From Clostridia bacterium (lineage in GTDB: Bacteria; Bacillota; Clostridia; Oscillospirales; Acutalibacteraceae), in the NCBI GenBank assembly GCA_017473925.1, contig JAFUIY010000121.1, positions 1 through 32,571 on the forward strand: a stretch of DNA of 32,571 nt, in the 5' to 3' direction. Position 1 is the first letter of the stretch. Each line of letters begins with the position of its first letter. The notes under the pieces are model-generated. The model did not search any database and was not told where the DNA came from. It saw nothing but the letters and a program-made list of their open reading frames with translations. Of this stretch, positions 1,738-30,784 are shown in pieces. A program made the position numbers and the translations under genes.

Positions 1738-1743
1738 CTGTAT

Positions 1744-1776
1744 CAATTAACAATGTACAATTTACAATGTACAATG
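1744..1776. repeat. dispersed CAATGTACAATTTACAATG repeat (copy 1, solo)
   Basis: The repeat consists of short tandem units CAATGTA/CAATTTA. It lies between the 3' end of the XRE gene and the 5' end of ssrA, so it would be in the leader of the tmRNA precursor. Related copies occur at 2961-2993, 3031-3062, 4783-4815 and 5200-5231. This copy has no obvious inverted partner. Confidence 0.7.
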
Positions 1777-1780
1777 AAAA

Positions 1781-2932: not shown

Positions 2933-2960
2933 AATAACACCTCCGTAAATCAGAATTTAT

Positions 2961-3062
2961 CAATAAACAATTTACAATTTACAATGTACAATGATTTACA
3001 AAAAACCGCCTGTATCGCTACATCTGCACGATTGTAAATTGTACATTGTACATTGTTAATTG
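2961..3062. repeat. about 100-bp gene-less element with inverted CAATGTACAAT-type ends
   Basis: The left end 2961-2993 (AAACAATTTACAATTTAC, then CAATGTACAATG) and the right end 3031-3062 (ATTGTAAATTGTACATTG and on) are imperfect inverted repeats of about 32 bp. They surround a 37-bp centre. The same ends flank the four-helix-bundle gene at 4783-5231 in the same relative orientation. This looks like a miniature inverted-repeat element inserted between argS and smpB. It also covers the region where the smpB promoter should be. No ORF is seen. Confidence 0.65.
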
Positions 3063-3079
3063 GTTCGACAAATTACTGT

Positions 3080-4768
3080 TTACATTGCTTCGGGAGCTGA
3101 GAGCTTCATCATAGTCAGCACGTTATATAATACATCTTTGACGCATTTGCAAAGGAATAATCTTGCCTGCTGAAGATTTTTGTCTTCGATGTCGCAGCGG
3201 CATGCATTATAGAACTTATGGAAAAGTGTTGACAGCTCAAGAGCATATCTTGTGATTCTTGAGGGGTCAAGTGCCTTTGCTGCACTTTCGATTTCACCTG
3301 TAAGTGAAGAAATGTGTCTGATAAGCTCTTTTTCTTCGGGTGCTGTAAGAAGCTGTGCATTTTCTTCTGTGCAACCGTTGAATTCAACACCCTTTTCGCT
3401 CATTTTCCTGAAGATACTGCAGATTCGTGCATGAGCATACTGACAGTAGTAAACGGGATTTGAGCTTGACTCTTCAATTGCAAGGTCGAGGTCGAAGTCG
3501 CAATGTGTGTTAGCTTCTCTCATATTGAAGAAGAATCTTGCAGCATCAATGGGTACCTCGTCAAGAAGAGTGACAAGTGTGATTGCCTTGCCTGAACGCT
3601 TTGAAAGCTTGACAGTTTCGCCGTTTCTTACAAGACGAACCATCTGCATAAGTACAACTTCGATTCTTGAGGGGTCTACGCCGAGAGCCTGGATTGCACC
3701 CTTGAGTCTGGGCACATAGCCGTGGTGATCGGCACCGAGGATGTCAATTGCTCTGTCGAAGCCTCTTGTTACAAGCTTATTATAATGGTATGCAATATCG
3801 GGAACGATATATGTGTAGAAACCGTTTGAACGGCGGAGAACAAAGTCCTTGTCACAGCCGAACTGCTCAGCCTTGAACCAGAGTGCGCCGTCAAGCTCAT
3901 ATGTGTAGCCCTTCTCTGTGAGCATATCCACAACCTTCTTTGCTTCGCCTGAGTTGTGGAGAGTGCTTTCTCTGAACCATGTGTCGTACTTGATTTTGTA
4001 CTTGAGAAGGTCTCTTTCAAGGCCCTGAATATTAAGGGGAAGTGCATACTCAACGAGAGCATTTCTTCTCTCTTCTTCCGTAGCATTTATATATTTATCA
4101 CCATAAATTTCAGCAAAATTCTTTGCATGGTCGATGATGTCCTGACCATGGTATGCATCCTCGGGCATTTCCATGGGGTCACCGAAGTGCTGTTTGTAAC
4201 GGACATCAAGTGACAGACCGAATTTCTCAATCTGATTGCCGCCGTCGTTTACATAGAATTCTCTTTCTGAGTGATAGCCTGCCCATGAGAGAATCTCAGC
4301 AAGGCAGTCACCCATTGCACCGCCACGGGCATTACCGATATGCATGGGACCAGTGGGGTTTGCGGAAACAAACTCAACAAGAGCAGACTTGCCCTTGCCG
4401 TAGTCAGAATGACCGTACATCTCACCCTTGTTCTCAACATCAAAAAGGATGTCTGCATAGTAAGCGGAGCCCAGAGTGAAATTGATGAAGCCTGCACCTG
4501 CGGCTTCGATTTTATTGAAATATGTGCCTTCAAGCTCTGCATTTTCACAGAGTGCTGCAGCAATTTTCATGGGAGCAGTTCTGAATACTCTTGCAGAAAC
4601 CATTGCGGCATTTGTTGAGTAGTCACCGTGTGTTCTGTCAGCAGGGACTTCAACCTTGAAATCGGGCACTTCTCCCTCGGGAAGCTGACCGTTTTCAATT
4701 GCCTTTGCAAGGGCTTTCTTTATGATTTCGTAAATCTGATTTTCGGCCTTTTTAACGATATAGCTCAT
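3080..4768 (-). CDS. argS: arginyl-tRNA synthetase
   Basis: A 562-residue class I aminoacyl-tRNA synthetase that charges tRNA-Arg in the cytoplasm. Visible features are an N-terminal additional domain with HGDYSTNAA around residue 50 and the HIGH signature in ANPTGPMHIGNARGG near residue 140. The KMSKS-equivalent is KLSKRSGKAITL near residue 385, and the C-terminal DALR-type anticodon-binding domain contains YCQYAHARICSIFRK and ends in VLTMMKLSAPEAM. GAAAGGAAA upstream of ATG supports the start. It lies downstream of ddl and the DUF1934 gene on the same strand. A four-helix-bundle gene flanked by inverted repeats separates it from DUF1934, which is often adjacent to argS in Firmicutes. I find no clear terminator after its stop; the inverted-repeat element begins 18 bp later. 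Confidence 0.98.
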   Translation of the reverse strand: MSYIVKKAENQIYEIIKKALAKAIENGQLPEGEVPDFKVEVPADRTHGDYSTNAAMVSARVFRTAPMKIAAALCENAELEGTYFNKIEAAGAGFINFTLGSAYYADILFDVENKGEMYGHSDYGKGKSALVEFVSANPTGPMHIGNARGGAMGDCLAEILSWAGYHSEREFYVNDGGNQIEKFGLSLDVRYKQHFGDPMEMPEDAYHGQDIIDHAKNFAEIYGDKYINATEEERRNALVEYALPLNIQGLERDLLKYKIKYDTWFRESTLHNSGEAKKVVDMLTEKGYTYELDGALWFKAEQFGCDKDFVLRRSNGFYTYIVPDIAYHYNKLVTRGFDRAIDILGADHHGYVPRLKGAIQALGVDPSRIEVVLMQMVRLVRNGETVKLSKRSGKAITLVTLLDEVPIDAARFFFNMREANTHCDFDLDLAIEESSSNPVYYCQYAHARICSIFRKMSEKGVEFNGCTEENAQLLTAPEEKELIRHISSLTGEIESAAKALDPSRITRYALELSTLFHKFYNACRCDIEDKNLQQARLFLCKCVKDVLYNVLTMMKLSAPEAM

Positions 4769-4782
4769 TGATTATTTCCTTT

Positions 4783-4815
4783 CAATGTACAATTTACAAT
4801 GTACAATTTACAATT
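4783..4815. repeat. dispersed CAATGTACAATTTACAATG repeat (copy 4), left end of cassette
   Basis: CAATGTACAATTTACAATG and more of the same units, ending at the stop codon of the four-helix-bundle gene (it overlaps the TAA by 2 bp) and 14 bp before the argS start. It is an inverted partner of copy 5 at 5200-5231. Confidence 0.7.
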
Positions 4816-5167
4816 ATTTTTCAGTTTTACTGGTTTTTACAATTGCCGTCAGCAATTTGGCAATTTCATTACAGTCCTTATAGATGCTGTTAAACTCTGC
4901 ATCCGTAATATAATCGGTTTCGTGCAGAAGTTCTAACCAATATTCCGTTTCACAAGCCTCTTTTAATGCGGTATTCATTTTATAGATAAAATCAGCATTG
5001 CTAAAACTGATTATTGCTTCTCTTATGTTGGCACCGATGCTTGTTCCGGAACGGACAAGTTGTTTTGAAAGATAGTATTCACATTTATCATTTCGCAAAT
5101 ATTTATACAATCGGATTATCCTGATAGCAAATAACCTGCTTTTATCTGCAACAATATTGTTCTTCAT
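4814..5167 (-). CDS. four-helix bundle protein, 23S rRNA intervening-sequence (S23) family
   Basis: A 117-residue, all-helical cytoplasmic protein. The family signature is clear: the SRLFAIRIIRLYKYL helix, the QLVRSGTSIGANIREAIISF motif, the KMNTALKEACETEYWLELL helix, and a last helix with EIAKLLTAIVKT. The family includes proteins encoded in intervening sequences of 23S rRNA and is related to Avd of diversity-generating retroelements; most members have no assigned role. The gene is inserted between DUF1934 and argS and is bounded by inverted copies of a dispersed repeat (4783-4815 and 5200-5231). The gene plus ends spans about 450 bp, like a compact mobile cassette. No strong ribosome-binding site is seen before the ATG (ATGAAAGGCTTT is the best candidate). 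Confidence 0.85.
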   Translation of the reverse strand: MKNNIVADKSRLFAIRIIRLYKYLRNDKCEYYLSKQLVRSGTSIGANIREAIISFSNADFIYKMNTALKEACETEYWLELLHETDYITDAEFNSIYKDCNEIAKLLTAIVKTSKTEK

Positions 5168-5199
5168 AATCCATAAAGCCTTTCATGGAATAACTAATC

Positions 5200-5231
5200 A
5201 TTGTACATTGTAAATTGTACATTGTACATTT
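5200..5231. repeat. dispersed repeat (copy 5), right end of cassette
   Basis: CATTGTACATTGTAAATTG and more, the reverse complement of copy 4. It sits 3 bp after the stop codon of the DUF1934 gene and 32 bp before the four-helix-bundle start, in the minus-strand reading direction. Confidence 0.7.
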
Positions 5232-5234
5232 TTA

Positions 5235-5645
5235 TTATTCCAGTGTTATAATTAACTCGTTTTCACTCGCGATACCGCCGTAAAAGTCGATGGTGTATCT
5301 GAGCTCGAGTGTGCCTTTTCCGTCTGTGATATCCGATGCAACCTTCTGTGCCGCAATGCCTATGAGCATTGAGCCGAAGGGTGACTGATACTGACAGGAG
5401 TGGCGTTTGCCCATTTCGATTGTCATTTCTGTGTTGTATGAGCCCGTACGGAGCATTGAAGCGCATGTGCCCTTTACATCAATTGTCGTGTGACAGCCCT
5501 TGAGCTCATCGTACTGTTCATCGTATTCGATTTTATATCCGTCAATGTATGATTCCCATGTGCCTCGGGTGGTCATTTCGTAAGACTCTTTACTGCCGTC
5601 AACGGTGTGGGTATCTTTTATTGTCAGAAGAATGTCCTTTTTCAT
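5235..5645 (-). CDS. DUF1934 / YwiB family protein
   Basis: A 136-residue protein of a conserved Firmicutes family with a beta-barrel-type fold and no settled function. The family pattern is visible: a start with KDILLTIKDTHTVDGSKESY, a TTRGTWESYIDGYKIEYDEQ block, the T-T-I-D-V-K-G strand, the M-L-R-T-G-S-Y-N-T-E-M turn, the HSCQYQSPFGSMLIGI motif, and a final strand ending in SENELIITLE. Its start lies only 2 bp after the ddl stop codon, so the two genes are almost certainly co-transcribed and possibly translationally coupled. In Bacillus-type genomes ywiB is near argS, and the same association is seen here apart from the intervening four-helix-bundle cassette. Confidence 0.88.
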   Translation of the reverse strand: MKKDILLTIKDTHTVDGSKESYEMTTRGTWESYIDGYKIEYDEQYDELKGCHTTIDVKGTCASMLRTGSYNTEMTIEMGKRHSCQYQSPFGSMLIGIAAQKVASDITDGKGTLELRYTIDFYGGIASENELIITLE

Positions 5646-11133: not shown

Positions 11134-11143
11134 GACAAACAGT

Positions 11144-11320
11144 AATTTGTCGAGGTGCCCTCGACAAATTAAATTGGCAATTAGCAATTATCAATGCGCA
11201 ATTAAGGAAAAGGCTTCGCCTTTTGAACCATTATAATGGGGTTTAAGGGGCTTGCCCCTTCCACAATTGCGAATTGCGAATTTCCAATTGCGAATTTTTG
11301 TCGGGCACAGCCCGACAAAT
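11144..11320. repeat. inverted-repeat element with nested hairpins in the divergent intergenic region
   Basis: A symmetric, gene-less block of about 177 bp. The outer hairpins are 11144-11170 (stem AATTTGTCGAGG, loop TGC) and 11297-11319 (stem TTTGTCGGGC, loop ACA). Inside are imperfect 36-bp inverted repeats rich in CAATT units (11172-11207 and 11261-11296). Between those are three more short palindromes: 11208-11224 (AAAAGGC/TTC), 11228-11239 (CCATTATAATGG, perfect) and 11245-11260 (AAGGGGC/TT). The design resembles the hairpin array near 1.0-1.2 kb. It separates the two divergent promoters and could act as a bidirectional terminator or insulator. No ORF is seen. Confidence 0.7.
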
Positions 11321-11381
11321 TCTGATTTGTAATTATACAAATAAATTTTTACAACAAGTTCAACAATTTACATTTTTGTGC

Positions 11382-11604: not shown

Positions 11605-14600
11605 ATGTTTAACAATGTTAAAGCAAAGAAAAGACTCACTCAGGTCATAATTGCCTTTGTTGTTATCTGTATGTCAGTCACAGGTAGCTTCCTGCTGCTT
11701 GAAGACACTATTGACAGTGCAAATGCGGCAACGGTAGATATGAACGTCGCATCTGCTGCAAACTGGCATTCCGCAGTCAACGGCAGAGGCAGCGGAGACA
11801 TAATCAACATCACTGTCACTGCAGACTTTGATGCAGGTTCCGCACTTACAACAATTCCTGCAGGTGTCACAGTCAACCTCAACATGAACGGTAAGACAAT
11901 TTACCGTGATTTCGAGGGTGAAGGCGACGGCTTCATGACTTATTCATATCCTGCAAGCGATAACTATTTCGGTATTATCCGTAACAGTGGTACTCTTAAT
12001 ATCACAGGTACAGGTACTATCCGTATGAAGCAGCTCGGTTCGTTTACACAGGGTAGTCAGCGTAATGAGGCTATCGGCCGCATGGCAGCTATTGTCAACT
12101 ATGCAAGCGGTACTCTGAATGTTTCAAACGGTATCAATATTCAGGCATATTCTGCTTTCATTACTCCTAAGTCATCATCAGCCACAGAGCGTTTTGCTGA
12201 CGTATTTATGTACAGTATTGCAATCCATAACTCAGGTACAGTCAACTGTGCAGGTAAGCTTCATGCAGGTACATTCACAGCCGGTGTTGCAAACTCCGGT
12301 ACAAGCTCATATCACTATGCTTTTGCATACGGTATTTACGGCGGTACAGTAAATGTAACAGGCGGTACAATCACAGCTGAGGCTCTTTCAGGTGCTCTGG
12401 AGTCAACAGAAACCTGTGCTGAAAAGAACCAGGTTTGTAACTTTGCTGTAGGTGTTTATTCAAACCAGGCAACAGTTAAGGGTGATACAACAATCAATAC
12501 TGCAACAACCAGCTGGATGTCACAGGACTCATTCAATATATGGAAAAGCGGTTGTAATATCTCATGGTCTGTTGGTGTCATGTACTCAACAACAAACTAT
12601 CCTGTTATCGGTGCTTCTGTTGACATTACATCAACGTTCAGAGTTGTCGACGGTGAACAGGTTCATGTTCCCGGCTCTGCAAACGGTTGGGCATATACCG
12701 TACGTGTTACCGATGATCCCGGTGACTACGGACGTCGTGCATACCCCGTTGCAGGTATTCCCGCAAACAACAACGCATCAATGCACGGTGACCAGGATGG
12801 TGAGGTTACTTACGCAACAGGCTTCTTCGGCAGCCAGACTGTTGACTCTTACGGTACAACATACTCAGGCATGGAACAGTATCTCAATGCTCAGTCACAT
12901 TTCTTCATTGCAGAAGATGCTTTCTATGACTACGGCAGAACAACCAATACATCATACCTTACAGACGTAAGAGGTCAGGTTCAGAAGCAGTCAGGTGCAG
13001 GTTCTGTTGAAACAAAGACAGGTTACATCAGAAGCGGTGCTCCCGGTGTAGACGGTACACAGTACCTTATCCTTTACCGTTACTATAAGGACAGCTTCAC
13101 ATCTTCAAACCTCTTCAAGGTTTCTCCTTCATATGATACAACTATCCAGTCAACAAGAGCAACTGTCAAGGCAGGCGGTACTGTAACATACAAGGGCTCT
13201 GTCAACGATGCTTCCGTTGCAATCGCATATAATTCAGGCGGTGCTTCAAAGAACCAGAATTATTATAAGTTCGAAGGCCAGACTGTCGAGCTTGTTCCCA
13301 CAGGCACATTTGCCACAAGAGACCCCTATAAGACAAACGGCTGGACAGCAAACGGTACAGCTCTTACATCAAACGGTGTTTCAACAACATCAGCAAACAC
13401 AGTTGTTATCTACATGAACTATGTTCTGAAGAATCCTACTTCAATCAGAGTTGTTGCAAACGACAAGACTGCAACAATTGACCAGTACACAGAAAGAACA
13501 CAGTTCACAGCAACATATACAGGTGCTTCACTTGTTCCCGGTACAGACTTCAAGCTCGGCATCATTGATATGGGTGTTCATCTTTCAGTTGACACTAATG
13601 ACACATCAGATGACGCTGTTGTAACAAGCGTATATGATATCTCAGGTACAGGCTCAGGCTCAGGTAACAATGCAACAGCTGTTACTTACAAGTACTCTGC
13701 TGACCAGTCAACATGGACCAACGGTCTTCCCAAGGATGTAGGTACATACTGGATTGAAGTAAATGTCAATGCAGATACAACCTATGCTGCAACCGGCACA
13801 TACAACCGTCAGGGTGCAACAGGTTACATCACATGTACAATTTCAAAGGCAAACCTTGAAATCGAAGGCTCAAGCTCAAGAACAGGTACATACGGCAAGA
13901 CATACGGCGAGCTCATTCCCTTCAGTGAATACAAGGCTGTAGGTCTCGGTTCAGACCAGCTTGAAGGCTCATGGTCATTCTCCGTGGTCGGCACAGGTGA
14001 TTATCCCGATGCAGGTCAGGAAACAGTACACCTTGTATGGACTCCCACACCCAACACAAAGACTGCTAACAACTACAATGCTACAAACTTTGCCGTAAGC
14101 CTTGTTGTTGACAAGCGTGCGGTCAATGTAAATGCAGGTGCTTCATTCGTAACATACGGTGACTTTGCACCCACATATACAATTGCATATGAAAACCTTG
14201 CTCCCTGCGATGACGCAAAGAAGGCAACATGGAACGAGGCTTCAGAAATAGAAATCTTCTACAACGGTGCATGGACAACATATACAGCAGGCATCCCTGC
14301 AGGTGAATACACATCAAGAATCAAGGTCTTCGGCGGTGCTGCTGACGAAAACAACGTATTCTCAGTAAACGTTGCAGAAGGCAAGTTCACAGTACAGAAG
14401 AGATCAATCGTTTACAACGCAGTTGCAATCGACAGAGATTATAACGGAACATCAGCAGTTGACGTCAAGCTCAACTATGTAAGCGGAAACTACTCAACAG
14501 ATGTATATGATACTGTTATCAACACAACAGGTACACTTGTTGCAGGTCCTGATGCAGGCGAAGGCAAGGCAGTAAATGTAAACAAGGATTCTGTTACAAT

Positions 14601-17600
14601 CAAGAATTCTTCAAACTATGCTCTCGTTATTGACAACGTTGACAATGTAACAGTCAATATCGGCAAGGCAACTCCCACAGGTGTTGCAGTTGTTGCAGAC
14701 CCCGCAACAATCACATACGACTCAACAAAGACTCTTGCTACAGCAACAGCTCTCCATACAACAGCTACAAACATTGAAGGTAACTGGGCATGGAAGAATG
14801 CTTCAACTGTTCCCACAGTTGACGTTGCTACTTACACAGCAGTCTTCACACCTTCAAACACAGTAAACTACAAGGTTATTGAACAGCAGGTTACACTTAC
14901 TGTAGAACAGAAGGAAGTTGTTGTTTCTGTAAAGAACTTTAACATCTTCTACGGTGATGCAGTTCCCGCAATCACAGGTTCAATCACATACACAGGCTTC
15001 ACAGGTTCAGATACAGTTGACACAATCGGTGCAAGCGGCGGTACAGACACAACCACAACTTACACAAGAGGCAGCGGTATCGGCACATATCCCATCAGTG
15101 TTATCACAACACTTGCATCAACAAACTACAGCTTTAAGTCAGTTGACAGCCAGATCGTAGTTGCTCCCAGGGCTCTTACAGTCAAGGCAAATGACATGTC
15201 TGTAACATACGGTGCAAACACACCCGATTTTGATGATTCAGACATCACAATCACAGGCTTCTACGGCACAGATAACGTAACAAATCTTAACGGTACTCTT
15301 GTTGTTACAACAGATTATGTTCCCGGTTCAGATGTCGGCACATATGACATTGTTGCATCAGGTTACTCAGCTAAGAACTATGCTATCACATACGAAGCAG
15401 GTACTCTTACTGTTGACAAGGCAACTCTTACAGTCAAGGCAAATGACCTTATTGTTACATACGGTGCAGACGCTCCCGCTTATGTTGCAAATAACCTTTA
15501 CACAGTAACAGGCTTCGTTGCAGGCGACACATACGAAACAACAGCAATCACAGGCAACCCTGCATTCACAACAGGTTACTCAAGCGGCAAGAACACAGGT
15601 TCATATCCCGTAAGAGCTACAGTCAGTGCAATGAGTGCAGACAACTACACATTCACAGGTGCTGAAGCAACTCTTACAGTTAACAAGGCAACTCCCGTTG
15701 TAACAATGGTTCCCGGTGCATCAGTTGTCAACTCACACACATTTGCAGAAGCAGAATTTGACGGTACAGAAACTGTTGTCAACCCCAACAAGGGTACAAT
15801 GACAGTCGCAGGTACATTCAAGTTTGCAAACGGCACAACAGTTGCAGTATGGGGCAGCGACGGTAAGTACGATGCAGTCTTCACTCCCGAAGATACTGAC
15901 AACTACACAACAACAACTGTCAAGGTTTACCTTGAAATCCTTGAAAAGGCTATCAGCGGTACACCCGTTATCCAGGGTTCAGCAATGGCAGGCTCAACAC
16001 TTACAGTAAGCCTTGTTTCAATGGATCCCACAGTAGCACAGTATTACACATTCCAGTGGTATGCTGATGATGCAGCTATCGCAGGTGCAAATGCAACAAC
16101 ATACAAGCTTAAGGATTCAGATATCGGTAAGGCTATCCATGTTGTTCTTACAGCTAACACAACATACGGCTTCACAGGTACAGCAAAGTCTGCAAAGACA
16201 TCACTTGTTATCGAGGCTCTTCTTGAAACAACAGCTGCACAGCTTAATGTTGTTCTTCCTTCAGAGGTTGAATATGATGCAATGAGCCACGCAGCAACAG
16301 TTACAATTGCTGACGGTTACAATCCTGCATACTTCGGTGAAATCACAGTCAAGTATAACGGTAACACAGCACGCCCTGTTAATGCAGGTACATACATTGT
16401 TACAGTTGATGTAGGTACTCCCGCTGCTCCCGAAGGCGGATATCCCGCAGATACTTATTACGGTCCCGCAACAGGTATTTCTGTTGGTGAAATCGTAATC
16501 ACAAAGGCTCCCTTCACAGTTGATGTTATTGCTTCAGATAAGGTTTATGACGGTACAACAACAGCTTATGCAACAGTTACAGGTTCAGGTCTTAAGGACG
16601 AAATGGACGATGTAAGAATTGCAGAAGGCAGCAAGTTCGCATTTGCTGATGCAAGAGTAGGAACAGATAAGGAAGTCAAGGTCACAACAATGACTCTTAT
16701 CGGTGCTCAGGCAAACAACTACGAAATCAAGGTTAACCCCGTAACAGCATCTATTACTCCCGCTACACTTTCAGCAAGAGCAACAGGTGTAAACAAGGTT
16801 TATGACGGTTCAGCTATGGTAAGCGTAGTATTCTCAAACATTGAAGGCTATGCTGCAGTTGACTCTTCAGCAACAGTTCAGATCAAGAACGGCTCTGCAG
16901 TAGCAGTTAGTTCAGATGCAGGTACTCAGCTTCTTACAAACATCACAGCATCACTTGAAGGCTCAAGCGCTGCAAACTATGTTCTTAAGATTACAAATGA
17001 GGCATCAGCAACTGTTACAATTTCTCCTGCAACACCCAATGTTGAAGCTCCCGTAATCAGCGGTCTTGTTTACGACTCAGCAAAGACTCTTCAGACAGTT
17101 GACCTTTCAGGCTATACAACAGCAAACGGCTTCTGGCAGTTTGACGATCTCACACTCGTTCCCACTGTATCACAGAAGACATATGCTGCAACATATTATT
17201 CAAGCAACAAGAACTATACAAACCTTAACGCAACAATCACACTTAACATTGATCCCAAGCAGGTTGTTCTTACAGCAGATGATAAGTCAGTACCTTACGG
17301 TACAAAGTCTCCTGTATTCACAATCACTGCATCAGGCTTCACAGGTGATGATACACTTGCTGATATCGGTGGTTCATGTACACCCATCTCAACATATGCA
17401 GCAGGTTCAGATATCGGTTCTTACCCAATCAACCTCAACAATGCTCTGAGTGATGATAACTATATCTTCACAACAGTTCCCGGTACACTTACAGTTGCTC
17501 CCGCAAGACTCAATGTTACAGCTACAGCTGCAAACAAGGTTTACGACGGTTCAACAGCAATCAAGGTAACATTCGCAATTACTTCAGGTAAGTACGGCAA

Positions 17601-18414
17601 CGATGATGTTTCTCTCAGCGCAACACAGGTTACAGGTAATGCTGCAACAGCAAATGCAGGTCCCACAACAGTTTCATATCTTGCCCCCTCACTTATCGGT
17701 GCAAAGGCTGACAACTATGAGCTTTACATTACACCTGCTTCAGGCGTTCTTACAGTTGAGATTGCCAAGGCTGATGTTTCAGGTGTTGTCTTCCCCGTTG
17801 ACGGTCAGGTTGAATTCGGCTACGACCTCAGCTACGCAACATTCGCAAAGAACGGTGTCGGCGACGGTACATTCGCATACGAAAATGCAAGAACTACTGT
17901 TCCCGGTGCACTCGGTCTCTATACAAACTACAAGGTTATCTTCACTCCCACAGATTCAAGAAACTACAACTCACAGGAAGCATTTGTTTCTCTTGAAGTT
18001 GTCAAGTGTGTTCTTGACTATGTAGTAGGTGTTGCAGGTACAGCACAGCAGGGTGAAACTCTTGCAGTTGTATTCACAGGTCTTCCCATTCATGCTCAGG
18101 CTTACATTCAGTACCAGTGGTACAGAGTCGGCGATAATGATGTTGAAGCTATCCCCGATGCAACAAGCCAGAAGTATGTTGCAACTGAAGAAGATGTAGG
18201 ATACACACTTGTTGTTGTAACTTATGTCAACGAAAACGATCCTTATGTATTCTCAGAAACAGCTAACATCGAAACAGTTGACGGCGATATCAACGGTATC
18301 CTCGGTCAGACACTCGATGCAATTGAAGAGCTCTCACTCACATTCTGGCAGAGACTTCTCAACTGGATCAGAAGAATCATTGAGGCTATCACAGGCATGA
18401 CACTTATGATGTAA
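11605..18414 (+). CDS. giant secreted adhesin: beta-helix plus MBG/YDG-type repeat modules
   Basis: A 2269-residue extracellular protein. Residues 1-42 are a signal peptide (basic KAKKRLTQ, hydrophobic core, ANA-A cleavage). Residues about 43-360 look like a right-handed beta-helix (GTLNITGTGTI, GTLNVSNGINI, GGTVNVTGGTI). From about 600 on follow many beta-sandwich modules. Some are of the MBG type (LTVKANDMSVTYGANTP, LTVKANDLIVTYGADAP), some of the YDG type (NKVYDGSAMVSV, DKVYDGTTTAYA). Two are Ig-like modules with the FQWYADD and YQWYRVG strands (about 1450-1530 and 2130-2210). There is no dockerin, LPXTG motif or SLH domain. The end is an amphipathic helix, FWQRLLNWIRRIIEAI, that may anchor it. 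It is Cys-poor. Codon use is extreme (Thr mostly ACA, Lys AAG). It probably mediates surface attachment or matrix formation. Confidence 0.9.
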   Translation: MFNNVKAKKRLTQVIIAFVVICMSVTGSFLLLEDTIDSANAATVDMNVASAANWHSAVNGRGSGDIINITVTADFDAGSALTTIPAGVTVNLNMNGKTIYRDFEGEGDGFMTYSYPASDNYFGIIRNSGTLNITGTGTIRMKQLGSFTQGSQRNEAIGRMAAIVNYASGTLNVSNGINIQAYSAFITPKSSSATERFADVFMYSIAIHNSGTVNCAGKLHAGTFTAGVANSGTSSYHYAFAYGIYGGTVNVTGGTITAEALSGALESTETCAEKNQVCNFAVGVYSNQATVKGDTTINTATTSWMSQDSFNIWKSGCNISWSVGVMYSTTNYPVIGASVDITSTFRVVDGEQVHVPGSANGWAYTVRVTDDPGDYGRRAYPVAGIPANNNASMHGDQDGEVTYATGFFGSQTVDSYGTTYSGMEQYLNAQSHFFIAEDAFYDYGRTTNTSYLTDVRGQVQKQSGAGSVETKTGYIRSGAPGVDGTQYLILYRYYKDSFTSSNLFKVSPSYDTTIQSTRATVKAGGTVTYKGSVNDASVAIAYNSGGASKNQNYYKFEGQTVELVPTGTFATRDPYKTNGWTANGTALTSNGVSTTSANTVVIYMNYVLKNPTSIRVVANDKTATIDQYTERTQFTATYTGASLVPGTDFKLGIIDMGVHLSVDTNDTSDDAVVTSVYDISGTGSGSGNNATAVTYKYSADQSTWTNGLPKDVGTYWIEVNVNADTTYAATGTYNRQGATGYITCTISKANLEIEGSSSRTGTYGKTYGELIPFSEYKAVGLGSDQLEGSWSFSVVGTGDYPDAGQETVHLVWTPTPNTKTANNYNATNFAVSLVVDKRAVNVNAGASFVTYGDFAPTYTIAYENLAPCDDAKKATWNEASEIEIFYNGAWTTYTAGIPAGEYTSRIKVFGGAADENNVFSVNVAEGKFTVQKRSIVYNAVAIDRDYNGTSAVDVKLNYVSGNYSTDVYDTVINTTGTLVAGPDAGEGKAVNVNKDSVTIKNSSNYALVIDNVDNVTVNIGKATPTGVAVVADPATITYDSTKTLATATALHTTATNIEGNWAWKNASTVPTVDVATYTAVFTPSNTVNYKVIEQQVTLTVEQKEVVVSVKNFNIFYGDAVPAITGSITYTGFTGSDTVDTIGASGGTDTTTTYTRGSGIGTYPISVITTLASTNYSFKSVDSQIVVAPRALTVKANDMSVTYGANTPDFDDSDITITGFYGTDNVTNLNGTLVVTTDYVPGSDVGTYDIVASGYSAKNYAITYEAGTLTVDKATLTVKANDLIVTYGADAPAYVANNLYTVTGFVAGDTYETTAITGNPAFTTGYSSGKNTGSYPVRATVSAMSADNYTFTGAEATLTVNKATPVVTMVPGASVVNSHTFAEAEFDGTETVVNPNKGTMTVAGTFKFANGTTVAVWGSDGKYDAVFTPEDTDNYTTTTVKVYLEILEKAISGTPVIQGSAMAGSTLTVSLVSMDPTVAQYYTFQWYADDAAIAGANATTYKLKDSDIGKAIHVVLTANTTYGFTGTAKSAKTSLVIEALLETTAAQLNVVLPSEVEYDAMSHAATVTIADGYNPAYFGEITVKYNGNTARPVNAGTYIVTVDVGTPAAPEGGYPADTYYGPATGISVGEIVITKAPFTVDVIASDKVYDGTTTAYATVTGSGLKDEMDDVRIAEGSKFAFADARVGTDKEVKVTTMTLIGAQANNYEIKVNPVTASITPATLSARATGVNKVYDGSAMVSVVFSNIEGYAAVDSSATVQIKNGSAVAVSSDAGTQLLTNITASLEGSSAANYVLKITNEASATVTISPATPNVEAPVISGLVYDSAKTLQTVDLSGYTTANGFWQFDDLTLVPTVSQKTYAATYYSSNKNYTNLNATITLNIDPKQVVLTADDKSVPYGTKSPVFTITASGFTGDDTLADIGGSCTPISTYAAGSDIGSYPINLNNALSDDNYIFTTVPGTLTVAPARLNVTATAANKVYDGSTAIKVTFAITSGKYGNDDVSLSATQVTGNAATANAGPTTVSYLAPSLIGAKADNYELYITPASGVLTVEIAKADVSGVVFPVDGQVEFGYDLSYATFAKNGVGDGTFAYENARTTVPGALGLYTNYKVIFTPTDSRNYNSQEAFVSLEVVKCVLDYVVGVAGTAQQGETLAVVFTGLPIHAQAYIQYQWYRVGDNDVEAIPDATSQKYVATEEDVGYTLVVVTYVNENDPYVFSETANIETVDGDINGILGQTLDAIEELSLTFWQRLLNWIRRIIEAITGMTLMM

Positions 18415-25573: not shown

Positions 25574-28500
25574 ATGAAAAAATACATAATTGCATGTATT
25601 CTTGTAGTTTTATGTATGTTCACTGTTGTTTTTACTGCTTATGCGGACACAACTTCAGATGAACAGTCTGCATTCTGCAGCCTTGGTGATGTCAACGGAG
25701 ACAATACCGTTACATCAGTTGATGCCCGACTTGCTCTTCGTGCATCAGCAAAACTGCAGGTTCTTGATGAAGGTCCCTTCAAGCGTGCAGATATCAATGT
25801 TGACGGAAAGGTTACAGCATCTGATGCGAGAACAATCCTCAGAATAGCTGCAAGACTTGAAACCCGTCCTACTCATGAAATAGAGGTCCTTCCCGGAAAA
25901 GCTGCAACATGTGTTGAAGCCGGTATTACAGAAGGTAAAAAATGTACACGCTGCAACGAAATCGTTGTGGCTCAGGAAGTTATTCCCGCAACAGGCCACA
26001 CAGAAGAGGTTCTTCCTGCGGTAGCAGCAACATGTACGGCAGACGGTCTTACAGAAGGTAAGAAGTGTTCTGTATGTGGCGATATTCTCGTTGCACAGGA
26101 GGTTATTCCTGCAGCAGGCCATAAGGAAATCGAAGTTGCTGAAATTCCTGCAACATGTACAAAGGACGGTTATGCTGCAGGTGTAAAATGTGAAACCTGC
26201 GATGCTGATATCAGCGGCCGTGAGGTAATTCCCGCAACAAACCATGAAAATACTGTTGTTACTATCCCCGGCAGAGTAGCTACATGTGAAAACGACGGTA
26301 TCACGGAAGGTAAGTTCTGTTCATACTGCGGTAAGATTCTGCAGGTTCAGACTGTTCTTCCCGCAACAGGTCATAATTACGTAAAGGTTGACGCAGTACC
26401 TGCAACATGTACTCAGTCAGGTATGATGGAATATGAAAAGTGCGAAAACTGTGATAAGATCAAGGGCGGTGTCCTTACAATTATCCAGGCTGCAGGCCAC
26501 AGAGAAGAAATCGTTCCTGCAGTAGCAGCAACATGTACTCAGACAGGTCTCACAGAAGGTAAGAAGTGTTCAGTATGTAATGAAGTTCTTGCTGCACAGA
26601 CAACAGTTGCAGCAACAGGCCATACAGAAGCTGTTCTTCCTGCAGTAGCAGCAACATGTGCTCAGACAGGTCTTACAGAAGGTAAGCAGTGTTCAGTATG
26701 TAATGAAGTTCTCGTTGCACAGGAAGTTATTCCTGCAACAGGCCATACAGAGGTTGTTATTCCCGCAACAGCAGCAACATGTATTGCAACAGGTCTTACA
26801 GAAGGTAAGTACTGTTCAGTATGTGGAGAAACACTTGTTGCACAGGAAGTTGTTCCCGTAGCAGGTCATACAGAAGAGATTATTCCTGCAGTGGAAGCAA
26901 CATGTATTGCAACAGGTCTTACAGAAGGTAAGAAATGTTCAGTGTGTGATGAAATTCTCCTTGAACAGGAAGTTGTCCCCGTAACAGGCCATACAGAAAC
27001 AGTTATTGAGGCAGTAGCTCCCACATGTACAGAAACAGGTCTTACAGAAGGTAAGTACTGTTCAGTATGTAATGCTTCAATCACAGCATCAAGAGTTCTT
27101 CCTGCAACAGGTCATACAGAAGAAACTCTTGCATATGCAGCTCCCACATGTACAGAAACAGGTCTTGAAGAAGGCACAAAGTGTTCAGTATGTGATGAGA
27201 TTCTTGTTGCACAGGATGTTATCCCTGCAACAGGTCATACAGAAGTTATTCTCCCTGCAGCAGCAGAAACATGTACAGAAACAGGTCTTACAGAAGGTAA
27301 GTACTGTTCAGTATGTGATGAAACACTTGTCGCACAGGAAGTTATTCCCGCAGCAGGTCATACAGAGGTTGTTATCCCTGAAGATCCCGCAACATGTACA
27401 GAAACAGGCCTTACAGAAGGTAAGTACTGTTCAGTATGTGAAGAAACACTTGTTGAACAGGAAGTTATTCCTGTAGCAGGCCATACAGAAAAGGTTGTTC
27501 CCGCTGTGGAAGAATCATTCACAGTCAAGGGCTCAACAGAAGGTCTTGTATGTGAAAACTGCGATGCTGTTTTCGTAGCAGCTGAAGAAATCCCCGAAAA
27601 GCTCGTCGTAATGGTTGACGATGCAAATGCATGGGCATCTGAAAACGGTGCAGATGCACTCCTCGGTGCCGAGACAGACGGTACAGACCTTGCTCTTGAA
27701 ATCAAGGTCGATGCAATCTGGGGCGACAGCTCAGTTGCAGATACAGCGTTTGACGGTCTCCTTACAAATATCGGTTCTTATCTTGACGAACACTTCGGCG
27801 ACGAAGCAACAGTCAGAATAGACGGTGAAAATGTATATTCAGAAGGCAAGCTTCACAACACAGCAGTGAAGAACACAATCTTCAATGTCGGTGCAGGCTT
27901 CTTCTATAACATTGCAAACCTTGCAGAAGACGGCGTTTACGGCATATATGATATTGAAGTCACAAGCATTGCAAACGGTGCTCAGCTGACAGAAAATATT
28001 GAATTCAGAGTTATCTTCACAGGCAACAGACTTGACACAATCAAGGACTTTGCAGGTGTTGTGGCAGAACACATTTCAATGACAGTAGTTGACGGTGACA
28101 CAGTTATCGATATTGAAGCACCCGAAAAGCTTATCGAGTCACTCAACGAAACATATTTTGATGAAGCATTCAGTGAAGCAACAATTGAAGATGTACTTGC
28201 AAACATTGCAGAATATGAAACATCAGAAGTATTCGGCAGTCAGGCAACAGCAATGGATAAGCTTGCAAGCACACTCTGCGGATTTGAAGGCGTATTCAAC
28301 AAGATACTCGGCAAGGTAGTATCAGCAACAATCGAAACAGTTGACGGCGATGAAATGGAACTCCTTGAACCCGGTGCACAGTTTGAAGTAAAGGGCGATG
28401 TAAAAGACTTCGGCACGCTTGTGGAAGCATTTGCAGCAATGCTCAATAAGGACGATGTACTCGGACTTGACATGAGCGCATTTGCAGCAGGCAACGATGT

Positions 28501-30700
28501 ATATTCATTCCCCGTAACAGTAAGTATCGACATGGGCAACCTTGGCGGTATGGACAGAGACATCATCACAGAAACAGTTATCTTCAACATTCACATGCCC
28601 GTACATGAGCATGAAATGGCTGAATACGATGTGGCACCCACATATACAAAGCAGGGTCTCACAGGCGGATATTACTGTACAACATGTGATTATGTTGAAA
28701 CTCCCGGAACAACAGTTCCCTCAAAGCTTGAAAAAATGGTAGCAGATGCAAACGGATGGATGGGTGAAAACACCCTCCTCCGCGGTGAAGCATCAGGCGC
28801 AGACCTTACACTTACAATTGATGTTGATGCAATCTGGAACGGTGCATCATTTGAAGACGATGCATTTGACGGCTTCCTTACAGAAATCGGTTCATATATT
28901 GATGAGGAACTCGGCACATCGGTAATCACAATAGACGGTGAAAATGTATATTCAGAAGGCAAGCTTCACAACACAGCAGTGAAGAACACAATCTTCAATG
29001 TCGGTGCAGGCTTCTTCTATAACATTGCAAACCTTGAAGATGACGGTGTATACGGCACATATGCAATTGTTGCAGACGGCGAAGAAATCACATTCAGAGT
29101 TATCTTCACAGGCAACAGACTTGACACAATCAAGGACTTTGCAGGTGTGGTGGCAGAACACATTTCAATGACAGTAGTTGACGGTGACATAGTTATCGAT
29201 ATCGAAGCACCCGAAAAGCTTATCGAGTCACTCAACGAAACATATTCTGAAGACGCATTTATCGAAGCAACAATTGAAGATGTACTTGCAAACATTGCAG
29301 AATATGAAACATCAGAAGTATTCGGCAGCCAGGCAACAGCAATGGATAAGCTTGCAAGCACACTCTGCGGATTTGAAGGCGTATTCAACAAGGTACTCGG
29401 CAAGGTAGTCTCAGCAACAATCGAAACAGTTGACGGCGATGAAATGGAACTCCTTGAACCCGGTGCACAGTTTGAAGTAAAGGGCGATGTAAAAGACTTC
29501 GGCACGCTTGTGGAAGCATTTGCAGCAATGCTCAATAAGGATGATGTACTCGGACTTGACATGAGCGCATTTGCAGCAGGCAACGATGTATATTCATTCC
29601 CCGTAACAGTAAGTATCGACATGGGTAACCTTGGCGGTATGGACAGAGACATCATCACAGAAACAGTCATCTTCAACATTCACATGCCCGTTGCTGAGCC
29701 TGAAGTTCCCGTAGCAGACAAGCTCAGTGCTGTAGCAGACAAAGCAAATGAATGGTCACAGGCAAATCTCGGCGGCTTAGTTGCTGCTGAGGTTGCAGAA
29801 GAAGACCTTGTAATTGATATTGATGTTGATGTAATATGGAATGACAGTGCAATCAATGCAGATGCATTTGACGGTCTCCTTACAAATCTCGGCAAATATC
29901 TTGATGAAGAGCTTGATATTTCATCAGTTTCAATTGACGGTGAAAATGTATATTCAGAAGGCAAGCTTCACAACACAGCAGTGAAGAACACAATCTTCAA
30001 TGTCGGTGCAGGCTTCTTCTATAACATTGCAAACCTTGAAGATGACGGTGTATACGGCACATATACAGTAGTTGCTGACGGTGAAACCTTCGCTCTCACT
30101 GTAAGATTCACAGGTAACAGACTCGGAACAATCAAGGATTTTGCAGCAGTTGCAGCAGAGCATATTTCAATGCAGGTTGTAGACGGTGACACTGTTATTG
30201 ACGTTCAGATGCCTGAAACATACATGAACAATGTATGCGGCGGAATGACTGAGGATGAGGTATACACTCTCTTTGAAGAAGTTACAGTTTCTCAGTTCAT
30301 TTATGAACTCGAAAGACAGGGCGCAGAAGGTACATTCGGCAGCCAGCAGACAGCAATCAACAAGATTTCTTCCATGCTTTGCGGTTATGAAAGCGTTGTA
30401 AATAAGGTTCTTGACAAGGTTGAGTCCATGACTGTTCTTGTTGACGGTATGGAAATTGATGTTCTTGCAGAAAATGCAGTATTTGAACCTAAAAATGGCG
30501 ATGTCAGAGATTTCTCAACACTTATGTCTGCTATAGGTTCAATGCTCAGTGAAGAATTCGGCGATATGACTCTTGATGCATTCCTCGTTGACGGAGTTCT
30601 TGTATTCCCTGTAACTATAACTGTAGATATGGGTAATCTTGATGCAATGGACAATGATCTGATAACAGAAACAATAATTATTTATCTCAATGTCTTTTAA
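25574..30700 (+). CDS. secreted protein: N-terminal dockerin, 14 Cys/His repeats, three copies of an unknown domain
   Basis: A 1708-residue exported protein. Signal peptide residues 1-24 (AYA-D). A type I dockerin follows directly (about 36-96, LGDVNGDNTVTSVDARLALR and DINVDGKVTASDARTILR); dockerins are more often C-terminal. Residues 101-675 are fourteen units of about 41 residues with C-x10-C-x2-C-x14-H spacing (typical TGLTEGKKCSVC and PATGH). The last unit has lost its first Cys and the His. Three copies of an unrecognised domain start at 676, 1051 and 1383. Each has AFDGLLTNxGxYLDE, IDGENVYSEGKLHNTAVKN, FNVGAGFFYNIANL and ends in DMGNLxxMDxDIITETxIxxx. A further degenerate Cys unit sits between copies 1 and 2. 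No cell-wall anchor is seen. GGAGG precedes the ATG. Confidence 0.88.
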   Translation: MKKYIIACILVVLCMFTVVFTAYADTTSDEQSAFCSLGDVNGDNTVTSVDARLALRASAKLQVLDEGPFKRADINVDGKVTASDARTILRIAARLETRPTHEIEVLPGKAATCVEAGITEGKKCTRCNEIVVAQEVIPATGHTEEVLPAVAATCTADGLTEGKKCSVCGDILVAQEVIPAAGHKEIEVAEIPATCTKDGYAAGVKCETCDADISGREVIPATNHENTVVTIPGRVATCENDGITEGKFCSYCGKILQVQTVLPATGHNYVKVDAVPATCTQSGMMEYEKCENCDKIKGGVLTIIQAAGHREEIVPAVAATCTQTGLTEGKKCSVCNEVLAAQTTVAATGHTEAVLPAVAATCAQTGLTEGKQCSVCNEVLVAQEVIPATGHTEVVIPATAATCIATGLTEGKYCSVCGETLVAQEVVPVAGHTEEIIPAVEATCIATGLTEGKKCSVCDEILLEQEVVPVTGHTETVIEAVAPTCTETGLTEGKYCSVCNASITASRVLPATGHTEETLAYAAPTCTETGLEEGTKCSVCDEILVAQDVIPATGHTEVILPAAAETCTETGLTEGKYCSVCDETLVAQEVIPAAGHTEVVIPEDPATCTETGLTEGKYCSVCEETLVEQEVIPVAGHTEKVVPAVEESFTVKGSTEGLVCENCDAVFVAAEEIPEKLVVMVDDANAWASENGADALLGAETDGTDLALEIKVDAIWGDSSVADTAFDGLLTNIGSYLDEHFGDEATVRIDGENVYSEGKLHNTAVKNTIFNVGAGFFYNIANLAEDGVYGIYDIEVTSIANGAQLTENIEFRVIFTGNRLDTIKDFAGVVAEHISMTVVDGDTVIDIEAPEKLIESLNETYFDEAFSEATIEDVLANIAEYETSEVFGSQATAMDKLASTLCGFEGVFNKILGKVVSATIETVDGDEMELLEPGAQFEVKGDVKDFGTLVEAFAAMLNKDDVLGLDMSAFAAGNDVYSFPVTVSIDMGNLGGMDRDIITETVIFNIHMPVHEHEMAEYDVAPTYTKQGLTGGYYCTTCDYVETPGTTVPSKLEKMVADANGWMGENTLLRGEASGADLTLTIDVDAIWNGASFEDDAFDGFLTEIGSYIDEELGTSVITIDGENVYSEGKLHNTAVKNTIFNVGAGFFYNIANLEDDGVYGTYAIVADGEEITFRVIFTGNRLDTIKDFAGVVAEHISMTVVDGDIVIDIEAPEKLIESLNETYSEDAFIEATIEDVLANIAEYETSEVFGSQATAMDKLASTLCGFEGVFNKVLGKVVSATIETVDGDEMELLEPGAQFEVKGDVKDFGTLVEAFAAMLNKDDVLGLDMSAFAAGNDVYSFPVTVSIDMGNLGGMDRDIITETVIFNIHMPVAEPEVPVADKLSAVADKANEWSQANLGGLVAAEVAEEDLVIDIDVDVIWNDSAINADAFDGLLTNLGKYLDEELDISSVSIDGENVYSEGKLHNTAVKNTIFNVGAGFFYNIANLEDDGVYGTYTVVADGETFALTVRFTGNRLGTIKDFAAVAAEHISMQVVDGDTVIDVQMPETYMNNVCGGMTEDEVYTLFEEVTVSQFIYELERQGAEGTFGSQQTAINKISSMLCGYESVVNKVLDKVESMTVLVDGMEIDVLAENAVFEPKNGDVRDFSTLMSAIGSMLSEEFGDMTLDAFLVDGVLVFPVTITVDMGNLDAMDNDLITETIIIYLNVF
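25874..27598 (+). repeat. 14 tandem units of about 123 bp encoding C-x10-C-x2-C-x14-H
   Basis: Within the first dockerin gene, units recur every 123 bp or so (for example TGT at 26534 and 26657). Units 6-13 are closest to each other, while 3-5 and 14 are more divergent, suggesting expansion from the middle. Each unit has three Cys and one His in fixed spacing. Confidence 0.85.
27599..30700 (+). repeat. triplicated about 330-codon domain
   Basis: Three copies start at 27599, 28724 and 29720. A stretch of more than 80 bp (from about 27840, 28950 and 29952) is identical or nearly identical in all three. Copies 1 and 2 are almost identical over most of their length, whereas copy 3 differs outside the conserved stretch. 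This indicates a recent duplication or gene conversion between copies 1 and 2. Confidence 0.85.
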
Positions 30701-30731
30701 TCAGTGCCGATTTTAAACTAACCAATACATT

Positions 30732-30761
30732 AACTGCCGGCAAAGAAGCCGGCAGTTTTTT
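30732..30761 (+). terminator. strong intrinsic terminator or attenuator between the two repeat genes
   Basis: Stem ACTGCCGGC (30733-30741) with GCCGGCAGT (30748-30756), 6-nt loop, then T-run to 30761. Only 23 bp separate it from the next start codon, too little for a promoter. It therefore either ends all transcription or works as an attenuator for the downstream gene. Confidence 0.85.
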
Positions 30762-30784
30762 AGATAAGAAAAAGGAGAGCAACC

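Follow-up and report, generated by a model that had tools for sequence, protein, structure and literature searches.

The S23-type gene in the window, the whole stretch of 32,571 nucleotides analysed here, and the inverted arrays of seven-nucleotide repeats (heptads) on either side of it probably form one mobile unit of the type known as rRNA intervening sequences (IVSs), in which the S23 protein would recognise its own heptads and aid the spread of the element. Comparison between genomes brought out the unit itself, the matching and the polarity of its two arms, its sense orientation, sites that are free of it and a hairpin common to gene-less copies, and these sequence data give good support to the unit, to its spread and to its polymorphism.

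The element occupies 448 bp of the minus strand (4783..5230) in the spacer between the DUF1934 gene upstream (5235..5645; PF09148) and argS downstream (3080..4768; PF03485, PF00750, and PF05746), both on the same strand as the S23 gene. This gene (4814..5167, minus strand) encodes an S23/23S rRNA intervening-sequence protein of 117 aa, a four-helix bundle with the fold of 2RLD and 2GSC, which in profile searches matched PF05635 with 104.5 bits (cut-off 33.8) and TIGR02436 with 111.2 bits (cut-off 24). PF05635 was the sole Pfam match of the gene, and the element encodes no Y1 (HUH) transposase. The first-pass annotation had placed the gene between inverted copies of a repeat that touches its stop codon, and both points were borne out: the arms lie at 4783..4814 and 5200..5230 (minus strand), and the 3' one runs into the stop codon (4814-4816). 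The further description of the gene as exactly bounded is correct for the 3' side, whereas on the 5' side the arm ends 32 nt ahead of the start codon. The annotation had missed that the arms are tandem 7-mers (AATGTAC/AATTTAC). The 5' arm consists of four heptads (AATGTAC, AATGTAC, AATTTAC, and AATGTAC) plus AAT, and the inverted heptads of the 3' arm are approximately its complement, so that the terminal inverted repeats expected of a MITE or an IS are present here in the form of heptad arms.

A repeat search found an inverted repeat of 36 nt (4783-4818/5189-5224, 86% complementary) and one of 24 nt (4791-4814/5207-5230, 96% complementary), and complementarity is exact over 25 nt between 4783-4807 and 5200-5224. 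In the minimum free energy (MFE) structure, the 3' side of a terminal RNA stem (4783..4817, minus strand) pairs with 5190-5224 in 32 pairs. The sense RNA of 4776-5236 had an MFE of -117.6 kcal/mol, compared with a shuffle mean of -85 kcal/mol (sd 5.17, z -6.3); since none of 100 shuffles reached the native value, the fold is not due to chance. By gene layout and predicted fold, the S23 reading frame is enclosed by complementary ends and runs in the direction of both neighbours, as in an IVS.

To see how general this arrangement is, we collected 161 unique S23 ORFs from our own genus and family and from named genomes, and kept 150 after dropping those with less than 200 nt on either side. Arrays with a lag of 7 were found upstream of 92 and downstream of 80 of the 150, and lags of 4-6 and 8-12 at no more than 3. 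In 80 of the 150, the flanks upstream and downstream of the same ORF were complementary with a score of at least 18, compared with 60 of 3000 mismatched S23 pairs. The 5' array match of one locus (L102) is a run of N. With an arm criterion of our own choosing (lag-7 scores of 12 and 10 on the two sides, inverted score of 16), inverted heptad arms were present at 20 of the 72 S23 genes of our genus and family, a sample selected by Pfam alone, at all seven plasmid S23 genes examined (from 26 plasmid records with a match) and at 8 of 12 S23 genes on viral contigs. The repeats are far from equally common next to unrelated genes, which the first-pass annotation had named as evidence against its claim: armed genes made up 57 of 78 S23 genes of named genomes (80 named loci) but 4 of 751 control genes drawn from the same named contigs and from 20 stretches of the family (L063-L162), although the former fraction overstates the family at large because the named loci were picked by similarity to an alignment dominated by heptad-armed S23. 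Single arrays near controls were not rare (51 upstream and 69 downstream of the 751). A few control ORFs with inverted flanks, in L117, L150, L081, L139, and L008, look by sequence as if they were Y1-like, DUF559-like, SufE-like, NusG-like, and IlvC-like, respectively, an assignment that we presume; other genes as regular cargo of heptad arms were rejected, as only the 4 of 751 clean controls passed the arm test.

Armed S23 genes came from Bacillota, Bacteroidota, Pseudomonadota, Fibrobacterota, Verrucomicrobiota, and Acidobacteriota, many of them in metagenome-assembled genomes, where binning can err; plasmids of Cyanobacteriota and Spirochaetota bring the number to eight phyla in all. One viral contig (L246) carries three S23 genes, each with heptad arms of its own, and the sequences differ. 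The expectation that the same ends would flank other S23 genes holds for the architecture (7-nt period, polarity, and about four repeats) but not for the sequence, which differs; ends in the form of one conserved sequence were rejected, as the heptads vary between elements.

Among 92 armed elements, with a median length of 488.5 nt, the 5' arm contained four heptads in 46 and followed the consensus A-R-T-K-N-N-N (A.85; A or G.94; T.85; G or T.89), a motif flattered by a phase chosen for the best ARTK fit. The polarity test gave both orientations equal freedom, and the polarity of the arms relative to the gene was 60 v 4, with 28 ties. Arm likeness was 0.73 within one element and 0.08 between elements. 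Heptad similarity rose with protein identity (Mantel r 0.27, reached in 0 of 2000 permutations, 79 elements), the mean 5-mer cosine of the heptads being 0.01 under 40% identity, 0.10 at 50-60%, 0.17 at 60-70%, and 0.52 at 70-80%. This correlation is explained in part by joint inheritance of arms and gene. The rapid change of the heptads together with their retained complementarity argues that pairing or a common recognition is under selection. It is highly improbable that the arrays arose by polymerase slippage in AT-rich spacers and flank S23 by chance. PMC4692102 notes an excess of heptamers among bacterial repeats, for which slippage has been put forward, but the arms match across the gene within an element and not between elements, the polarity is strongly one-sided, and almost no control gene is armed; the slippage reading is strongly disfavoured.

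Within 1.5 Mb of sequence, mostly contigs picked for S23, there were 129 inverted heptad pairs with a bimodal spacing. None of the 27 pairs spaced under 200 nt enclosed an S23 gene, whereas of the 77 pairs spaced 320-600 nt 71 contained an S23 HMM match and three more were read as S23; the 25 pairs at other spacings comprised nine with and 16 without S23. In 361 kb picked for arrays, there was no S23 match, nor were the arms of any inverted pair 200-1000 nt apart. Gene-less pairs share the polarity of the S23 elements (23 v 1, 4 ties, n=28). A subterminal hairpin, GGAAA(A/G)GGCT..GCC(C/T)TTT, occurred in nine distinct contexts in the sequences examined, eight of them directly behind a heptad array, and was found both in two S23 elements (C117 and L015) and at gene-less or solo arrays (window 11206, G002, G003, and G009). 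Sharing of this hairpin suggests that the gene-less copies are internal-deletion derivatives of S23 elements.

The window itself holds further heptad arrays, annotated without strand. A repeat search found a solo array at 1741..1777. The argS-smpB spacer contains a gene-less inverted pair (2958..3062) inside an outer inverted repeat (2947-2961/3067-3081), and near-identical copies of this pair occur elsewhere in the genome (13 of 14 compared stretches aligned). A second gene-less pair with other heptads (11172..11296, arms at about 11172-11203 and 11265-11296) sits within the same kind of outer repeat and carries the subterminal hairpin GGAAAAGGCTTCGCCTTTT, which is also located behind the 5' arm of the S23 element of contig C117. 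Over their full extents (2947-3081 and about 11137-11328), the two pairs combine different heptads with an outer inverted repeat of the type AAACAGTAATTTGTC / GACAAATTCTGATTT. These outer repeat motifs are absent at the S23 element of the window. The earlier view of the arms as copies of a dispersed repeat needs amending, in that the multicopy dispersed repeat of this genome is a gene-less composite that carries an additional outer repeat. The window also encodes TnpV, a transposon-encoded protein (458-859; PF14198), and large repetitive proteins at 11605-18414 and 25574-32571, the latter with 123-nt repeats.

A profile search found five PF05635 genes in our own genome, three of which have heptad arms, on contigs C120 (that of the window), C75, and C117, with three different heptads (AATGTAC, AATGCAT, and AATTCGC). 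The remaining two are without arms, and one of them (C37, locus L013) follows a tRNA-Thr gene at a distance of 298 nt. The same genome has 218 matches to the heptad pattern on both strands. Such an excess of arrays over S23 genes would be in keeping with a model that we consider unlikely, in which an unrelated host or IS transposase moves the heptad elements and S23 is merely a common cargo or an accessory that regulates their expression. Further in its favour are the lack of a recognised catalytic domain in S23 and the multicopy gene-less family with outer repeats, whose spread may have another cause than S23. It is at odds with S23 being the cargo in at least 74 of the 77 inverted pairs at 320-600 nt and with the absence of the outer repeat motifs from the window S23 element.

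The distribution of arrays among 80 genomes of the family bears on the same model. The presence of arrays tracked that of S23, which was matched in 12 of 16 array-bearing and 21 of 64 array-less genomes (p 0.004). No such link was seen in these genomes for RVT_1 (4 of 16 and 16 of 64) or for the Y1 transposase (9 of 16 and 28 of 64), and a reverse transcriptase or Y1 transposase acting in trans was rejected for want of this association. That arrays follow S23 and neither of these enzymes speaks against S23 as a passenger, and the four array-bearing genomes without an S23 match speak for it. In one genome, G029 (L189-L191), there were 32 heptad-array matches (AATGCGT/AATTCGT), with the reversed pattern present 23 times, and no PF05635 gene was found; going by sequence, its arrays may have been left behind or may be served from elsewhere.

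We then compared the insertion sites between congeners. All five testable S23 insertions, from three genomes, faced an element-free orthologous spacer in at least one congener. The DUF1934 gene was found in nine genomes of the genus, our own included, and S23 lies in the DUF1934-argS spacer of two of these (G000 and G001), so that the gene is not fixed in all relatives, the other outcome that had been named as evidence against a mobile unit. The spacer is S23-free in six of the nine (G002, G003, G004, G005, G008, and G010), with another insert in G003 and a solo array in G010; in G009, heptad repeats extend to the contig end, and the contig stops first. A comparison of this gap for empty sites had been suggested, and the short S23-free spacers of G002, G003, G004, G005, and G008 confirmed the claim that the gene interrupts the DUF1934-argS neighbourhood. 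At the C117 site, the same five genomes have short spacers, G001 and G010 have 80 nt between the anchors, and G009 has an array-bearing insert. The C75 site is empty in G003, G004, G005, G008, and G009, and holds gene-less heptad elements in G002 and G010 and a solo array in G001. The site of the G001 element (L015) is empty in G000 and G004, with a gene-less element in G002 and G003, and that of the G010 element (L025) is element-free in G000, G001, G002, G003, and G004. Locus L014 was left out of the comparison, and the flanks of L016 were not syntenic in relatives. The five insertions are thus polymorphic in the genus, and spacers are re-used.

In the spacer orthologous to that of L015, the elements of G002 (L255) and G003 (L256) are nearly alike in the core and the 3' arm and differ in the 5' heptads, which indicates that arms can turn over in place; this difference is not explained by simple inheritance of arms. 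No target-site duplication was evident by eye at the five sites, at a divergence between congeners that may hide one. Among the 45 best S23 pairs listed, there was no near-identical heptad-armed element at two sites; these pairs had common flanks, or the match was confined to the gene.

Orientation was counted for S23 genes whose two neighbours each lay no more than 400 nt away (109 genes, 68 of them armed), using crude longest-ORF gene calls. The armed genes were sense to both neighbours in 57 cases, antisense to both in two and mixed in nine (binomial p for 57 v 2 = 6e-15). Small control genes between codirectional neighbours were in sense in 165 of 200, so the 57 v 2 may in part reflect selection for being expressed. 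The alternatives are an insertion coupled to transcription and the survival of only those copies that lie in sense and can be read through. The heptads resemble promoter hexamers, and for this reason the element may possibly have a promoter of its own.

Sense orientation to both neighbours in 57 of 68 would also suit an ordinary operon gene that is not mobile now, with the heptad hairpin as a selected cis-regulatory or mRNA-processing element and the presence/absence pattern due to losses. Some insertions are common to related species together with their flanks (L118/L129 and L115/L120), and in the tree the S23 of the window is sister to the one that occupies this site in G001 (99/84), so that the insertion here may be of long standing, with losses in closer relatives, instead of a recent gain. 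We nevertheless regard this explanation as quite unlikely, as the spacers of five insertions in three genomes are each element-free in congeners, gene-less pairs of the same polarity occur elsewhere, and S23 genes are found on plasmids and viral contigs. Judged from presence and absence between genomes, S23 elements are apparently mobile. The original proposal of an inverted-repeat element with S23 as its only gene that constitutes a mobile unit is in this way supported by the enrichment of arms and the polymorphic sites, from which movement would follow.

An S23 tree of 169 proteins, built from few columns and with rough supports, contained a group of 52 (99/91) in which two genes were heptad-armed, compared with 90 of the 117 outside it. 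A tRNA gene on the same strand within 600 nt upstream was present for 26 of the 52 and for none of the 117, the control value being 11 of 471. In these 26, the S23 gene follows the tRNA gene, which can be of many kinds, at a distance of 145-472 nt, for example in L013, L022, L024, L031, L034, L040, L044, L053, L055, L056, L160, L161, and others (gene near 1500 in most). Upstream of 19 of the 52 members there are at least four short hairpins, and the gap between tRNA and S23 often holds short hairpins in strings, their linkers of 7-8 nt being first direct and then inverted. A stretch that runs from roughly the end of the tRNA to the S23 stop codon is 81% alike in L031, which follows tRNA-Val, and L056, which follows tRNA-Leu, and the likeness goes no further; by sequence this looks like one element behind two tRNA genes. 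In L024 (tRNA-Gly) and L152 (no tRNA within 600 nt), the likeness is likewise confined to the part from -264 to the S23 stop. The tRNA-linked S23 genes apparently represent a second architecture that is mobile, too. A separate group of 14 S23 genes (support 99/99) includes nine with a heptad array on one side only; in L018, L019, L029, L048, L049, and L050, this array (ATTATTC or related) is upstream and ends 25-195 nt before the profile start.

Among known systems, REPIN/RAYT combines a small gene with dispersed inverted short repeats. The S23 element is similar in this respect, but S23 is not a Y1 transposase and Y1 genes do not track heptad arrays. Like MITEs, the gene-less copies are short inverted-repeat elements present in many copies; unlike MITEs, their arms are heptad arrays with sequence turnover, and the proposed autonomous partner is no known transposase. 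For the reverse transcriptase that would point to Avd, the accessory protein of diversity-generating retroelements (DGRs), no RVT_1 match was found in our own genome (93% complete).

The closest resemblance is to the 23S rRNA IVS of Coxiella. According to PMC4990558, this IVS of 428 nt has an S23 ORF in sense, tandem heptamers (GACAGAT) ahead of the ORF in numbers that vary between strains, and a terminal stem of 28 bp that RNase III cuts. By this description, it shares with the window element (448 bp) the sense S23 ORF, stem-forming terminal repeats, heptamers upstream of the ORF and a similar length. IVSs with an S23/IVP ORF are named there also in Leptospira, Brucella, and Xanthomonas, and older ideas quoted in the same paper see the IVS as a transposition remnant or the ORF as needed for mobility. 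Its Discussion states that, after more than 25 years, the functionality and origin of IVSs are still unclear. The same source finds that S23p is probably not made in Coxiella and gives the RNA greater weight than the protein, an argument against S23 being required in this IVS. Unlike rRNA IVSs, the window element is located in a protein-operon spacer (DUF1934-argS) and not in 23S rRNA, for which reason we did not file it as an rRNA IVS; its kind also differs in that heptads build both arms and in having gene-less copies, element-free sites and a distribution over many phyla. With the same anatomy in a protein operon, it reads as an IVS-type element outside rRNA. S23-bearing IVSs are thus a known kind, and the location of such an element outside rRNA would be what is new here.

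Intergenic 7-nt repeats like those described here have been reported in PMC4679880 (TAACTGA in Beggiatoaceae, Cyanobacteria, and a few Bacteroidetes) and PMC4692102 (GGGAATC in Xanthomonas and GGGGA(C/T)T in Nostoc), as far as the accessible text of the two papers goes; 'S23' and 'four helix' do not occur in that text. For giant sulfur bacteria, the available part of PMC4679880 suggests that a repeat-binding protein might be the mobile element, and S23 is a candidate for a heptad-binding protein outside these bacteria. Among the titles and abstract openings listed for S23, IVSs, heptamers, and Avd, none linked S23 to heptads outside rRNA, preprints and most subscription journals being outside the scope.

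Our preferred reading of the element as one IVS-type unit would work as follows. Lying in sense between genes that are likely to be transcribed together, the element would probably be expressed by read-through. The transcript is predicted to fold into a long terminal heptad stem around the S23 reading frame, and from this stem we infer that RNase III presumably excises the element, by analogy with rRNA IVSs. Like its solved relatives, the S23 protein probably assembles five four-helix bundles into a ring, and it most likely recognises its own heptads as RNA or single-stranded DNA. By doing so, it would help the spread of the element and of gene-less copies with the same arms, and solo arrays would be remnants. 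Recognition of heptads by S23, cutting by RNase III and a role of S23 in movement are what we infer from the comparisons.

The questions addressed by these results are the role of the S23/IVP protein, the spread of rRNA IVSs and the origin of heptameric repeats. A wider proposal is tentative and rather doubtful, namely that S23 and heptad hairpins make up a mobility module with no recognised transposase, RT, or HUH enzyme of its own (association with arrays having been assessed for RVT_1 and Y1), which resides in transcription units of at least eight phyla and of which the 23S rRNA IVSs, many unexplained bacterial heptameric repeats and the tRNA-linked branch may all be products. The finding provides a testable link between two old puzzles, S23 proteins and seven-letter repeats. 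If S23 and its arms are one unit, each armed gene adjoins its own predicted target, which would allow simple binding, swapping, and mobility tests, and the gene-less copies would account for one class of the repeats that are scattered through many genomes.
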